The position numbers and the translations under genes are program-made. Positions 14,413 to 21,838 of a stretch of DNA of 64,000 nt are shown piece by piece. The notes under the pieces were generated by a model that saw only the letters and a program-made list of their open reading frames with translations, was not told the DNA's origin and ran no database searches. The DNA is from Candidatus Edwardsbacteria bacterium RifOxyA12_full_54_48 (GTDB lineage Bacteria > Edwardsbacteria > AC1 > EtOH8), in NCBI GenBank assembly GCA_001777915.1, contig MFFN01000008.1, forward strand, positions 62,001 to 126,000. Direction: 5' to 3'. How positions within the stretch are numbered: the first letter of the stretch is position 1; every line of letters starts with the position of its first letter.

Positions 14413-15102
14413 ATGTCAGAAGATTACATCGATCTGGGGAACAAGCTGGAGAAGCACGGCCATCTGGACCAGGCCCTGAACGCCTTCGAGAGCGCCCTGC
14501 AGGCCGAGCCGGACAACGCCGAGGCCTGGTTCAGCAAGGCCCGCATCCTGAGCCGGATGGAGAGCTTCGACCAGGCCATCAAGGCCTACGATCAGGCCAT
14601 CACCCTAAGGCCCGATTTTGCCAAGGCCTGGTGCAACAAGGGCATTGTGCTTGGGGTGCTGGACAGCGACCAGGAGGCGGAGGCAGCCCTGGACAAGGCC
14701 ATCAGCCTGGACCCCAAGATGATCGCCGCCTGGTACAACAAGGGGCTGGCGGTGCGTGACCTGGGGCGCTTTGACGAGGCGGTCAAAATATTCGACCAGG
14801 CCATCAAGCTGGACGCCGAGTACAACGACGCCTGGTACAGCAAGGGCGTCACTTTGCGCCGGATGCAGAAATACGACGAGGCCATGGTGGCCCTTAAAAA
14901 ATCCCTGGTGATATACTCCGATGATGCCGATGCCTGGTACGAGCTGGCCCGGGTCCAGCTGTTCAAGGGGGATGTCAATGCTTCCCTGCAGAGCCTGGCC
15001 AAGGCCATCGAGAACGACGAGGATTACAAGGAGAACGTTACCCAGGACGAGGATTTCAAATCATTGTGGGAGAATCCGGAGCTGAAGAAGCTGTTGGTCT
15101 AG
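14413..15102 (+). CDS. Tetratricopeptide-repeat protein
   Basis: 229 residues made almost wholly of TPR units of 34 residues: repeated AWxxKGxxL and FDEAxxxFDQAIxLDP patterns occur at least five times from about residue 10 to 190. There is no signal peptide, so it is probably a cytoplasmic adaptor. The binding partner is unknown. It is separated from guaA by 132 bases with no other gene and from the kinase cluster by 96 bases. Confidence 0.85.
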   Translation: MSEDYIDLGNKLEKHGHLDQALNAFESALQAEPDNAEAWFSKARILSRMESFDQAIKAYDQAITLRPDFAKAWCNKGIVLGVLDSDQEAEAALDKAISLDPKMIAAWYNKGLAVRDLGRFDEAVKIFDQAIKLDAEYNDAWYSKGVTLRRMQKYDEAMVALKKSLVIYSDDADAWYELARVQLFKGDVNASLQSLAKAIENDEDYKENVTQDEDFKSLWENPELKKLLV

Positions 15103-15144: not shown

Positions 15145-15198
15145 AAAGCGTGTCATTTTAAAACGTAAAATATACGGTCATTGTTAAGGAGAATATCC

Positions 15199-16500
15199 AT
15201 GGTCAAGAAAAAGCCGGGCAAAAAGAAGGCTGTCAAAAAGACCATAGCCAAAAAGAAAAAAGTTCAGGTCAAAGCGGTAAAAAAATCCCCTCCCAAAAGG
15301 AAGGCCGTCAGAAAACCGCTTAAGGCCCAGGCGGCTCCGCGGAAAAAAACAAAAAAGAAGGCAACCGTCGCCAGTAAGGCAATAAAAAAATCACCGTCGG
15401 TAAAAAAGGTCCCTAAGTCAGATAGGGCCGCAAAAGATTTTTTGATACTGGTGCTCAACCCGGGCTCCACCTCCACCAAGGTGGCGGTCTACCGGGGCTC
15501 AAAACAGCTGGTGGCCGAATCCATCGGGCACGATAAATCCGAGATAGAGAAATTTCCCCGGATAGTGGACCAGTACCCCATGCGCAAGGCGGTGGTGCTG
15601 GATTTTCTGTCGCGCAATAAGATCGGCGTCAGAGAACTTTCCGCGGTGGTGGACCGGGGCGGGCTGTTAAAGCCCATCTCCTCGGGCACCTATCACATAA
15701 ACCAGTCCATGCTGGACGACCTCAAGGAGGCCAGGCGGGGCGAACACATCTCCAACGTGGGGGCCTTCATAGCCAAGGAGATCGCCGAGCAGGCCGGCTG
15801 CCGGGCCTTTATAGTGGACGCCGTCTCGGTGGACGAGTTCGATCCGCTGGCCCGGATCTCCGGCCTGGCCGAGATCGAGCGCAAGTCATTGTTGCACGCC
15901 CTGAACATGCGGATGGCGGCCCTGCAGGCCTGCCAGGAACTGAAGAAGAAACTGGCCGAGGTCAACCTGATCGTGGCCCATCTGGGGGGAGGGATCTCCA
16001 TCTCCCCGCTGGATCACGGGAAATTCATAGATGTAAATAATGCCAACGAAGGCGGGCCGTTCTCCCCGGAGAGGGCCGGCGGGGTGCCCACCGGAGCCCT
16101 GGTCAAGATGTGTTTCTCCGGCAAATACACCGTTGACGAGATCAAGAAAAAGCTTACCCGCAGCGGGGGCCTGTCGGCCTATCTGGGGACCAACATGGCC
16201 AACCAGGTCAAGGACCGGGTGCTGGCCGGGGACCAGCAGGCCGAGGAGGTCTTCAGGGCCATGGCCTATCAGATAGCCAAGGAGATCGGGGCCTGCGCCA
16301 CGGCGCTTAAAGGGCGGGTTGACGCCATCGTGGTCACCGGGGGAGTGGCCTTCAATGAGATCTTCACCGACTGGATAAAGGAACGGGTGTTGTTCATCAG
16401 CCCCAGGTTCCTGGTCTATCCCGGCGAGGACGAGATGCCGGCCCTGGCCGCCGGGGCCTTAAGGGTTTTAAGAGGAGACGAAAAGGCTAGAGAATATTAG
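15199..16500 (+). CDS. buk: Butyrate kinase-like acyl kinase with a lysine-rich N-terminal tail
   Basis: Converts acyl-phosphate and ADP to carboxylate and ATP. ATG 15199 is chosen because AAGGAG at 15186-15191 is well spaced from it; an in-frame TTG at 15181 lies before that site. The ASKHA kinase core begins near residue 78 (ILVLNPGSTSTKVAVYRG) and has the family blocks VDRGGLLKPISSGTYHIN, VAHLGGGISISPLDHGKFIDVNNA and LVYPGEDEMPALAAGALR. About 75 preceding residues are mostly Lys, Ala, Pro and Val (KKAVKK, KKKVQVKAVKK), like a histone H1 tail; the second copy at 17080 lacks it. Total 433 residues against about 355 usual. Confidence 0.9.
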   Translation: MVKKKPGKKKAVKKTIAKKKKVQVKAVKKSPPKRKAVRKPLKAQAAPRKKTKKKATVASKAIKKSPSVKKVPKSDRAAKDFLILVLNPGSTSTKVAVYRGSKQLVAESIGHDKSEIEKFPRIVDQYPMRKAVVLDFLSRNKIGVRELSAVVDRGGLLKPISSGTYHINQSMLDDLKEARRGEHISNVGAFIAKEIAEQAGCRAFIVDAVSVDEFDPLARISGLAEIERKSLLHALNMRMAALQACQELKKKLAEVNLIVAHLGGGISISPLDHGKFIDVNNANEGGPFSPERAGGVPTGALVKMCFSGKYTVDEIKKKLTRSGGLSAYLGTNMANQVKDRVLAGDQQAEEVFRAMAYQIAKEIGACATALKGRVDAIVVTGGVAFNEIFTDWIKERVLFISPRFLVYPGEDEMPALAAGALRVLRGDEKAREY

Positions 16501-16660: not shown

Positions 16661-17029
16661 ATGGCTCACGATGTCAAGCAGGACCTGGAAAGGAACCTGG
16701 TGGTAATCAAACATTCAGAACATGTGGACAAGGATGACCTGTGGAATGCCCGGCTGGAGGCCCTGAAAATGGTGCAGGGCCATGAATCACCCAGGATCCT
16801 GGTGGACATGCGGAACATCGATCTGACCACCACCACCATGGAGCGGTACGAGTTCGCCCAGTCGCACAACAAGTATTTCACCAGCCGCACCAAGATAGCC
16901 ACCCTGATAACCAAGGACGATCCCAAGAAACAGGACCACCAGTTCGTGGAGACGGTCAGCCTTAACCGGGGGTTCCTGCTGAGGGTGTTCGAGGACCAGG
17001 GCGAGGCCGAGCAGTGGCTGCTGGGATAG
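16661..17029 (+). CDS. STAS/SpoIIAA-like small protein
   Basis: 122 residues with no signal or membrane segment. The alternating strand-helix pattern (RNLVVIKHSEHV, ESPRILVDMRNIDLTTTTMERYEF, TKIATLI, NRGFLLRVFEDQGEAEQWL) resembles SpoIIAA-like STAS folds, in which the last segment FxxxxxAxxWL is typical. Such proteins are often regulators or lipid-related. AAAGGGGG lies about 12 bases before the ATG. It sits between two butyrate kinases and may share their transcript; the role is unknown. Confidence 0.6.
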   Translation: MAHDVKQDLERNLVVIKHSEHVDKDDLWNARLEALKMVQGHESPRILVDMRNIDLTTTTMERYEFAQSHNKYFTSRTKIATLITKDDPKKQDHQFVETVSLNRGFLLRVFEDQGEAEQWLLG

Positions 17030-17079: not shown

Positions 17080-18150
17080 TTGCCCTTCAAAGTTTTGGCC
17101 ATCAATCCCGGCTCGACCTCGACCAAGATAGCGGTCTTTGAGGACGACAAGCCGACCTTCAAACAGACCCTGAGCCATTCCGCCGAGGAGCTGGCCCCCT
17201 TCAAGCGCATCACCGACCAGTACGATTTCCGCAAGAAGGTCATAGAGGAGGTGCTGGGCAAGGCCGGCATCAATGTCAAAGAACTCCATGCGGTCATCGG
17301 GCGGGGCGGGCTTTTCAAGCCCATTCCCTCGGGCACCTATGCCGTCAGCCAGCCCATGAAGGATTATATCCTGGCCGGCACCGGAGGCGACCATGCCTCC
17401 AACCTGGGCTGCCTGATCGCCGATGACATCGCCCGCGATGCCGGGGTCAAGGCCTATATCGTCGACCCGGTGGTGGTGGATGAACTGAACCCCCTGGCCC
17501 GCTATTCCGGCCTGCCGGAGATCCCCCGGGTCAGCATCTTCCATGCCCTCAACCAGAAGGCGGTGGCCCGCCGGGCCTCGAAGGACCTGGGCAAAAGATA
17601 TGAGGAGCTGAATCTGGTGATGGTGCACCTGGGCGGGGGCATCTCGGTGGGCATCCATGAAAAGGGGAAAGTGGTGGACGTCAACAACGCCCTGACCGGC
17701 GACGGGCCGTTCGCACCGGAGCGCTCCGGCGGCCTGCCCACCGGCGACCTGGTGAAGATGTGCTTCTCCGGCAGATACACCCAGGCCGAGATGATGAAAA
17801 AGCTGGCCGGCCAGGGCGGCTGCGTTTCACATCTGGACACCAACGACGGAAGGGAAATGGAGAAGCGGGTCAAGGAAGGCGATGCCAAGACCACCCTGAT
17901 CATCCAGGCCATGGCCTACCAGGTCTCCAAGTGCATCGGCGAGATGGCCACGGTGGTGAACGGCAAGGTGGACGCCGTCGTGCTGACGGGTTCCTTCGCC
18001 TACTTCCCGGAATTCATCGAGTGGATCAAGGAGCGGGTGGCCTGGATCGCCGAGGTCCTGGTCTACCCCGGCGAGGACGAGATGACGGCCCTGGCCGAGG
18101 CCGGGATGAGGATACTGAAGGGCGAGGAGCAGGCCCGGGAATATAACTGA
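17080..18150 (+). CDS. buk: Butyrate kinase-like acyl kinase, second copy
   Basis: 356 residues, the normal family length, starting FKVLAINPGSTSTKIAVF. Conserved blocks include IGRGGLFKPIPSGTYAV, MVHLGGGISVGIHEKGKVVDVNNA, PERSGGLPTGDLVKMCFSG and LVYPGEDEMTALAEAGMRIL. The start is TTG 17080, set by GGAGG at 17068-17072 (7-base spacing). It is clearly paralogous to the tailed kinase upstream, but diverged enough that different acyl chain preferences (butyrate, isobutyrate, isovalerate) are plausible. Substrate cannot be read from sequence. Confidence 0.93.
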   Translation: MPFKVLAINPGSTSTKIAVFEDDKPTFKQTLSHSAEELAPFKRITDQYDFRKKVIEEVLGKAGINVKELHAVIGRGGLFKPIPSGTYAVSQPMKDYILAGTGGDHASNLGCLIADDIARDAGVKAYIVDPVVVDELNPLARYSGLPEIPRVSIFHALNQKAVARRASKDLGKRYEELNLVMVHLGGGISVGIHEKGKVVDVNNALTGDGPFAPERSGGLPTGDLVKMCFSGRYTQAEMMKKLAGQGGCVSHLDTNDGREMEKRVKEGDAKTTLIIQAMAYQVSKCIGEMATVVNGKVDAVVLTGSFAYFPEFIEWIKERVAWIAEVLVYPGEDEMTALAEAGMRILKGEEQAREYN

Positions 18151-19054: not shown

Positions 19055-19951
19055 ATGATCAAATCCTTTTCCGATCTGATGAAACAGGCCCAGGCCAGCG
19101 GGCCCAAAAAAGTGGCGGTGGCGGTGGCCCAGGACGAGGTGGTGCTGGAAGCATTGAGCGAAGCCGCCAAAGAGAAGATCGCCACCCCCATATTGTTCGG
19201 CGATAAGGCCGCCATCGAGCAGGCCGCCCAGAAGGCGGGCGTTAACATCAAGGGCTGGGAGATCCATGACATCAAGGACATGGCCCAGGCCTCCAAGGCC
19301 GCGGTGGCTGCCGTCTCCAGCGGGAAGGCCGATTTTTTGATGAAGGGCCTGGTGGCCACCTCCACCTTCCTGAAGGCGGTGCTGGACAAGGAGGTCGGCC
19401 TGCGCACCGGGCGCCTGCTGTCGCACGTGGCGGTGATGGAATCTTCGTCCTATCCCAAGCTGATCCTGGTCAGCGACGGAGGCATGAACGTCAAGCCCGA
19501 CCTGATGGCCAAGGTGGACATCATCAACAATGCGGTGGCCATAGCCCACAAGCTGGGGGTGGAGAAGCCCAAGGTGGCGGTGCTGGCCGCCATCGAAGTG
19601 CTCAACCCGGAGATGCCGGACACCATAGACGCCTCGCACCTGGCCAAGATGGCCGACCGGGGGCAGATCAAGGGCTGCCTGGTGGACGGCCCGCTGGCCC
19701 TGGACCTGGCGGTCTCGGCCGAGGCCGCCGCCCACAAAAAGATAAAGAGCCAGGTGGCCGGCGAGGCGGACATCTTTCTGACGCCGGAGATCGCCTCCGG
19801 CAACATGCTGGTCAAAGGCTTGATCTACCTGGGCGGGGCCCAGGCCGCCGGGATCATCGCCGGGGCGGCCAAGCCGGTGGTGATGCTCTCCCGGGCCGAC
19901 TCCAAGCAGCAGAAGCTGAACTCCATCGCCCTGGGAGTGGTCAGCTGCTGA
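19055..19951 (+). CDS. ptb: Phosphate butyryltransferase-like enzyme, first copy
   Basis: 298 residues of the phosphate acetyl/butyryltransferase family, which exchanges CoA for phosphate on acyl-CoA and feeds the acyl kinase. Family blocks are ADFLMKGLVATSTFLKAVLDKEVGLRTG, LSHVAVMES, NNAVAIAHKLGVEKPKVAVLAAIEVLNPEMPDT and KGCLVDGPLALDLAVS. Length is typical of Ptb rather than Pta. Its stop overlaps the following diguanylate cyclase start by one base (TGATG), implying translational coupling. Confidence 0.92.
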   Translation: MIKSFSDLMKQAQASGPKKVAVAVAQDEVVLEALSEAAKEKIATPILFGDKAAIEQAAQKAGVNIKGWEIHDIKDMAQASKAAVAAVSSGKADFLMKGLVATSTFLKAVLDKEVGLRTGRLLSHVAVMESSSYPKLILVSDGGMNVKPDLMAKVDIINNAVAIAHKLGVEKPKVAVLAAIEVLNPEMPDTIDASHLAKMADRGQIKGCLVDGPLALDLAVSAEAAAHKKIKSQVAGEADIFLTPEIASGNMLVKGLIYLGGAQAAGIIAGAAKPVVMLSRADSKQQKLNSIALGVVSC

Positions 19952-20932: not shown

Positions 20933-21838
20933 GTGGCACAAGTGACATCATTGAAGCAGATGGCGGAACTGGTAAAAGGCGGACCCCTCAAGAAAGTGGC
21001 GGTGGCCTGCGGGCAGGACCCGGACATCATCGGAGCCCTGGCCCGGGCGGTCAATGAGAAACTGGCTCAGGCCATTCTGATCGGCGACCAGAAGAAGACC
21101 GAAGCTTTGGCCAAAGAGAACAACATCGATCCCAGGATATTCACCTTGATAGACCAGACCGATTATAAAAAAGCGGCCACCCAGGCGGTGGAGATGGTCA
21201 AGAAGGGGGAGGCCGACGTGCTGATGAAGGGGCTGATAGACACTGCGATCTACGCCCGGGCCTACCTGAACAAGGAAACCGGCCTGACCACCGGGGCCAC
21301 GGTCTCCCACGTGGCAGTGTTCGAGGTACCCAACTACCCCCGTCTGCTGATACTTACCGACGCCGCCCAGATACCGTATCCTGATTTCGGCCAGAAGGTG
21401 GACATGATCAACCACGCCGTGGCGGTGGCCAGAAAATTGGGGGTCGAAACCCCCAAGGTGGCGGTGCTCACCGCCACCGAGAAGGTCAATCCCAAATGGC
21501 CCTGCAGCCTGGAGGCGGCCCAGCTGGCCAAGATGGCCGACCGGGGCCAGATCAAGGGCTGCATAGTGGACGGCCCGCTGTCCATGGACGCGGCGGTCAG
21601 CCCGGAATCCGCGGCAGGCAAGGGGCTTAAATCCCCGGTGGCCGGGTATGCCGATATTCTGCTGACCCCCGATATCCAGGCCGGCAACATCCTGTACAAG
21701 ACCCTGACCCAGCTGGCCAAGGCCGAACTGGCGGCCATGGTGATCGGCACCAGCGCTCCGGTGGTCCTGACCTCGCGCACCGATTCCGACGACACCAAGT
21801 TCATGTCGATAATCCTTTCGGTGCTGATGGCCAAATAG
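20933..21838 (+). CDS. ptb: Phosphate butyryltransferase-like enzyme, second copy
   Basis: 301 residues, same family as the copy at 19055 with the matching blocks ADVLMKGLIDTAIYARAYLNKETGLTTG, VSHVAVFE, NHAVAVARKLGVETPKVAVLTATEKVNP and KGCIVDGPLSMDAAVS. The start is GTG 20933 with GGAGAG about 9 bases upstream. Divergence between the two copies, like that between the two kinases, suggests two acyl-CoA specificities rather than recent duplication. Confidence 0.92.
   Translation: MAQVTSLKQMAELVKGGPLKKVAVACGQDPDIIGALARAVNEKLAQAILIGDQKKTEALAKENNIDPRIFTLIDQTDYKKAATQAVEMVKKGEADVLMKGLIDTAIYARAYLNKETGLTTGATVSHVAVFEVPNYPRLLILTDAAQIPYPDFGQKVDMINHAVAVARKLGVETPKVAVLTATEKVNPKWPCSLEAAQLAKMADRGQIKGCIVDGPLSMDAAVSPESAAGKGLKSPVAGYADILLTPDIQAGNILYKTLTQLAKAELAAMVIGTSAPVVLTSRTDSDDTKFMSIILSVLMAK

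Follow-up and report, generated by a model that had tools for sequence, protein, structure and literature searches.

It is customary to regard the metabolic enzymes of bacteria as freely soluble. The window analysed here, a stretch of 64,000 nucleotides from Candidatus Edwardsbacteria bacterium RifOxyA12_full_54_48, encodes a butyrate kinase, BukA, which begins with a lysine-rich segment resembling histone H1. This raises the questions of whether the segment is a genuine part of the protein and what it might do there. Lysine-rich H1-like tails are themselves of a known kind; within the partial coverage of our literature search, no description was found of such a tail fixed on a butyrate kinase or on a set of metabolic enzymes of one phylum.

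BukA is a complete kinase behind a lysine-rich tail

The bukA ORF (15199-16500, 433 aa) runs uninterrupted from the ATG at 15199 to the stop codon at 16498-16500 (Table 1). Residues 1-79 contain 31 lysines, four arginines, a single Asp or Glu and no aromatic residue (39% Lys, 15% Ala, 11% Val, 9% Pro and 5% Arg). AlphaFold gives pLDDT values of about 30-43 across residues 1-78 (all below 50), without secondary structure, and values above 90 over most of the kinase part. By the score that we used, the tail is the most lysine-rich non-acidic 40-residue window among the ORFs of approximately 2.07 Mb (76% of the genome). No regular or tandem KPAA repeats were found in it, a Pfam search with the tails alone gave no match over the cut-off and Rfam gave no match close to the bukA locus.

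The remainder of the protein has the features of a working enzyme. TIGR02707 (butyrate kinase) matches from residue 83, covering model positions 2-350, and its 473 bits exceed the cut-off of 289; the closest solved relative is butyrate kinase 2 of Thermotoga (PDB 1x9j, E=6e-101, query 81-433). The NPGSTSTK motif and the residues RGG 74-76, H104, D128, H154, H182, R213 and E333 (core numbering) are kept in six aligned BukA sequences and are invariant in a 25-sequence alignment that includes all ten BukA proteins from the phylum. The six sequences also keep nearly all positions at which 128 other butyrate kinases show at least 95% conservation, and the departures are mostly at small or hydrophobic sites. 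Because the active-site residues are retained, it is unlikely that BukA is a regulatory pseudo-kinase, and we reject the idea of a degenerate protein with a regulatory role only; the alignments point to an active butyrate kinase.

Table 1. Coordinates of the features at the bukA locus and of the other tailed proteins
Feature	Position	Strand	Remarks
TPR protein, conserved neighbour upstream of bukA	14413..15102	+	Pfam TPR; synteny
BukA Shine-Dalgarno AAGGAG	15187..15192	+	6-nt spacer to ATG; read in sequence
BukA N-terminal lysine-rich, H1-like tail, predicted disordered	15199..15435	+	Residues 1-79, net +34
BukA butyrate kinase domain, acetokinase/ASKHA fold	15436..16500	+	Active-site residues present; TIGR02707, PDB 1x9j, family-invariant columns
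SpoIIAA-like protein between bukA and bukB	16661..17029	+	PF11964 weak, below cut-off; synteny
BukB, tail-less paralogous butyrate kinase	17080..18150	+	TIGR02707 527 bits
Phosphate butyryltransferase 1 (ptb)	19055..19951	+	NF004472 402 bits; PF01515
Phosphate butyryltransferase 2 (ptb)	20933..21838	+	NF004472 380 bits, TIGR02706 364 bits, both just below cut-off; PF01515
Tailed polyprenyl-diphosphate synthase	L205-L213; G000:C6:131887-133086		N-terminal tail
Tailed RsfS	L262-L271; G000:C1:136358-136699		N-terminal tail
Tailed acyl-CoA mutase large subunit	L332-L338; G000:C4:114992-115486		N-terminal tail
Tailed PPDK	L339-L348; L303 16338-19298		C-terminal tail

These results bear out a preliminary description of the locus, which had reported an H1-like tail ahead of a complete kinase, a ribosome-binding site that sets the start before the tail and a paralogue 1.9 kb away without one. 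The paralogue, BukB, has no tail and begins 0.6 kb past the end of BukA (1.9 kb from start to start). The gene order purH-HEAT-guaA-TPR-bukA-(SpoIIAA-like)-bukB-ptb-GGDEF-ptb is largely kept across the phylum. The SpoIIAA-like gene is present in one or two copies between bukA and bukB in most relatives, and in one relative, G001, there is an in-frame TAG near the C-terminus of BukB (L115, G001:C57:38363-39421).

The tail is kept throughout the phylum

We compared ten genomes of the uncultured phylum Candidatus Edwardsbacteria, which represent four genera and include four from the genus of the window. All ten have a BukA orthologue, and in all ten it carries a basic tail of 61-112 aa with a net charge of +26 to +37, in frame with the kinase and with no more than one aromatic residue. 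An SD-like sequence and a start codon precede the tail in every orthologue. Four relatives (L080, L082, L086 and L087) lack any ATG, GTG or TTG from mid-tail to the first beta strand, which rules out a translation start after the tail in these four. The preliminary description had named a start after the tail, or a tail absent or frameshifted in relatives, as grounds for doubt, and none of these was found. A start downstream of the tail is rejected, as is an assembly or frameshift artefact, and the in-frame tail behind an SD sequence and a start codon in ten of ten genomes excludes chance or misannotation.

The tail has a dN/dS of 0.28-0.59, a sign of purifying selection, which shows that it is translated and constrained. 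This constraint is chiefly on charge: the closer pairs have 32-34 of 36-38 basic tail positions in common. Tail identity is 51-67% within the genus against approximately 90% for the core, and 40-67% against 81-96% overall. The letters of the tail thus drift quickly and the alignments indicate no conserved specific contact, while frame and charge persist. With the tail as query, a protein search gave confident matches to orthologues from the genus only. Judged from the sequences, BukA is a butyrate kinase with a genuine, translated polycationic tail of the H1 type, disordered by prediction.

Outside the phylum, no lysine-rich extension was found on the butyrate kinases of 76 loci, mostly from Clostridia, or of the 69 extra-phylum genomes that have such a kinase in a 386-genome survey. 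The unusually long frames among these either join the kinase to phosphotransacylase-like sequence or consist of open, non-coding sequence, and have at most nine lysines in any 40 residues. That the tail is a common feature of butyrate kinases is not borne out by the loci and long frames examined. Apparent N-terminal phosphotransacylase-like fusions, judged by eye, were seen in other phyla (the Buk frames of G012, G299 and G329; L186, L187 and L192).

Other proteins of the phylum carry similar tails

A scan for strongly basic, non-acidic 40-residue windows, covering the same 76% of the genome, showed BukA to be one of several tailed proteins in this phylum, rather than the isolated oddity that the preliminary description had implied. 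Pyruvate phosphate dikinase (PPDK) has a C-terminal lysine-rich tail in all ten genomes. N-terminal lysine-rich tails are found on polyprenyl-diphosphate synthase in nine genomes (shorter in G004, G005 and G007), on ribosome silencing factor RsfS in eight of the eight orthologues read out (L266 and L268 were left out) and on the large subunit of a B12-dependent acyl-CoA mutase, related to methylmalonyl- and hydroxyisobutyryl-CoA mutase, in all seven genomes that have the gene. The RsfS extension starts at a TTG 12 nt past GGAGG. The solved-structure matches of PPDK, the mutase and the polyprenyl synthase end where the tails start. Basic lysine-rich ends are also present on ribosomal protein L21 (C-terminal) and IF-2 (N-terminal) in the same genome. 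The same scan on 0.85 Mb of control loci from other phyla, mostly clostridial and taken around buk genes, gave one internal match and no terminal tails. A DNA pattern search of the genome for lysine-rich runs was insensitive; it picked up the polyprenyl synthase and missed BukA. Taken together, the putative tethers on several enzymes and on RsfS look like a means, shared by the whole lineage, of giving soluble enzymes a place in the cell.

Two further observations were made at these loci. An ORF for a MeaB/ArgK-like GTPase adjoins the gene for the tailed mutase, and a tiny ORF on the minus strand of L284 (at about 9878), with the end MACAKKAAKKVVKKAVKKVAKKKK, may encode a free histone H1-like peptide.

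The PPDK tails differ in type within the phylum. In G004, G005 and G007 the tail consists of two to three copies of (R/P)GRPKGSKNK, the later ones slightly degenerate; the consensus of the plant type-I AT-hook is RGRP(A/P)GSKNKPKP (PMC7896510). The Pfam AT-hook model reported no match to these repeats. In the genus of the window the same end of PPDK has TPRR and KKAVKK sequences instead. Because AT-hook-type and H1-type tails replace each other at this one site, the comparison suggests that they share a job, namely DNA binding. A GRP core with basic flanks was not found in any of the ten BukA tails examined.

What the tail may bind

We infer polyanion binding by the tail, DNA as its target and an effect on metabolism. 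Our best explanation, to which we would give an even chance, is that BukA is a working kinase whose polycationic H1-type tail serves as a tether, with nucleoid DNA as the likeliest anchor and BukB left free. The disordered tail would hold the kinase on a cellular polyanion, nucleoid DNA being the first candidate and the ribosome or RNA the second, and BukB would provide a free enzyme pool. The gain for the cell might be local ATP, acyl-phosphate near DNA or an even spread of the enzyme through the cell. By analogy, the AT-hook-type sequences on the PPDK tails make DNA the favoured target. RNA and other anions are ligands of polycations too, however, and this counts against a DNA-specific reading.

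The ribosome is a serious alternative target, kept in play by RsfS, L21 and IF-2, whose basic lysine-rich ends occur in the same genome as that of BukA. The tail would then moor the kinase to ribosomes or RNA, as the basic extensions of ribosomal proteins do, and couple ATP supply to translation. Tails on L21 and IF-2 are common in other bacteria, however, and so may be unrelated, and the AT-hook-type repeats on the PPDK orthologues point to DNA; on balance we regard mooring to the ribosome as rather unlikely.

It is also conceivable, if improbable, that the tails have no nucleic-acid partner and instead draw enzymes into charge-driven metabolic clusters, either with one another or with anionic metabolites such as acyl-CoA, acyl-phosphate, ATP and diphosphates. 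Every tailed enzyme uses anionic substrates, and the steps of BukA and the acyl-CoA mutase could be neighbours in acyl-CoA metabolism. Most tail-less enzymes, including BukB and both Ptb proteins, have such substrates too, however, and the AT-hook-type tails would have no obvious role in clusters of this kind.

The fast divergence of the tail and its wide range of lengths would also be expected if the tails were a by-product of this lineage under weak constraint, arising by slippage of AAA/AAG repeats or expansion of Ala, Lys and Pro, with at most an effect on solubility. Against this, the tail is retained in all ten genomes with a dN/dS below 1, conserved charge and no loss of frame over four genera, and tails are restricted to specific proteins, being present on BukA but not on BukB. 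We consider a by-product of this sort quite improbable.

The preliminary description had proposed that the tail binds nucleic acid or polyphosphate. The idea of a polyanion tether is supported, with DNA favoured through PPDK, but its polyphosphate part fares badly. Lysine-rich sequences bind polyphosphate and AlgP sits on polyphosphate granules (PMC9239181), so that an AlgP/PhaF-like link between BukA and polyphosphate or PHA granules could be imagined. Neither PPK1 nor PhaC was found in any of the ten genomes, however, and none of the four genomes from the window's genus, where the BukA tail is kept, has PPK2; a granule anchor is disfavoured and we think it very unlikely. A self-acylation sensor, in which butyryl-phosphate made nearby would acylate tail lysines and so alter charge and activity, is scarcely credible: about 30 lysines adjoin an acyl-phosphate enzyme, and lysine is acylated non-enzymatically by acyl-phosphates, but PPDK, RsfS and the polyprenyl synthase make no acyl-phosphate and yet have similar tails.

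Tethering to DNA, as we prefer to read the BukA tail, can be extended to the other enzymes. The whole phylum would then moor butyrate kinase, acyl-CoA mutase, PPDK and polyprenyl-diphosphate synthase to the nucleoid by H1-like or AT-hook tails, with energy metabolism organised on the chromosome; this wider proposal is a tentative one, and falls short of an even chance. A phylum that keeps H1-like tails on specific fermentation and anabolic enzymes would exemplify metabolism organised on DNA or ribosomes. The tails would be portable parts, transferable to other enzymes, and the tailed and tail-less pair of BukA and BukB offers a natural control.

Comparison with known systems

The whole kinase domain of BukA (residues 81-433) aligns with butyrate kinase 2 of Thermotoga maritima (PDB 1x9j/1saz) and the catalytic motifs are kept, but the Thermotoga enzyme has no N-terminal tail. 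The (R/P)GRPKGSKNK repeats that end PPDK in G004, G005 and G007 resemble the type-I AT-hook of the plant AHL proteins, although these are PPC-domain transcription factors and BukA itself is without AT-hook-type sequence. A precedent for DNA binding is offered by AlgP (AlgR3) and PhaF of Pseudomonas, whose lysine-rich K/A/P tails attach to DNA and keep granules in position (PMC9239181). In both, tandem KPAA repeats form the C-terminal part of a granule protein that is not an enzyme, whereas the tail of BukA is N-terminal and non-repetitive and belongs to a metabolic kinase, and the genomes that encode it have neither PPK1 nor PhaC. Like the tails of AlgP and PhaF, however, that of BukA is rich in Lys, Ala and Pro, strongly basic and predicted to be disordered.
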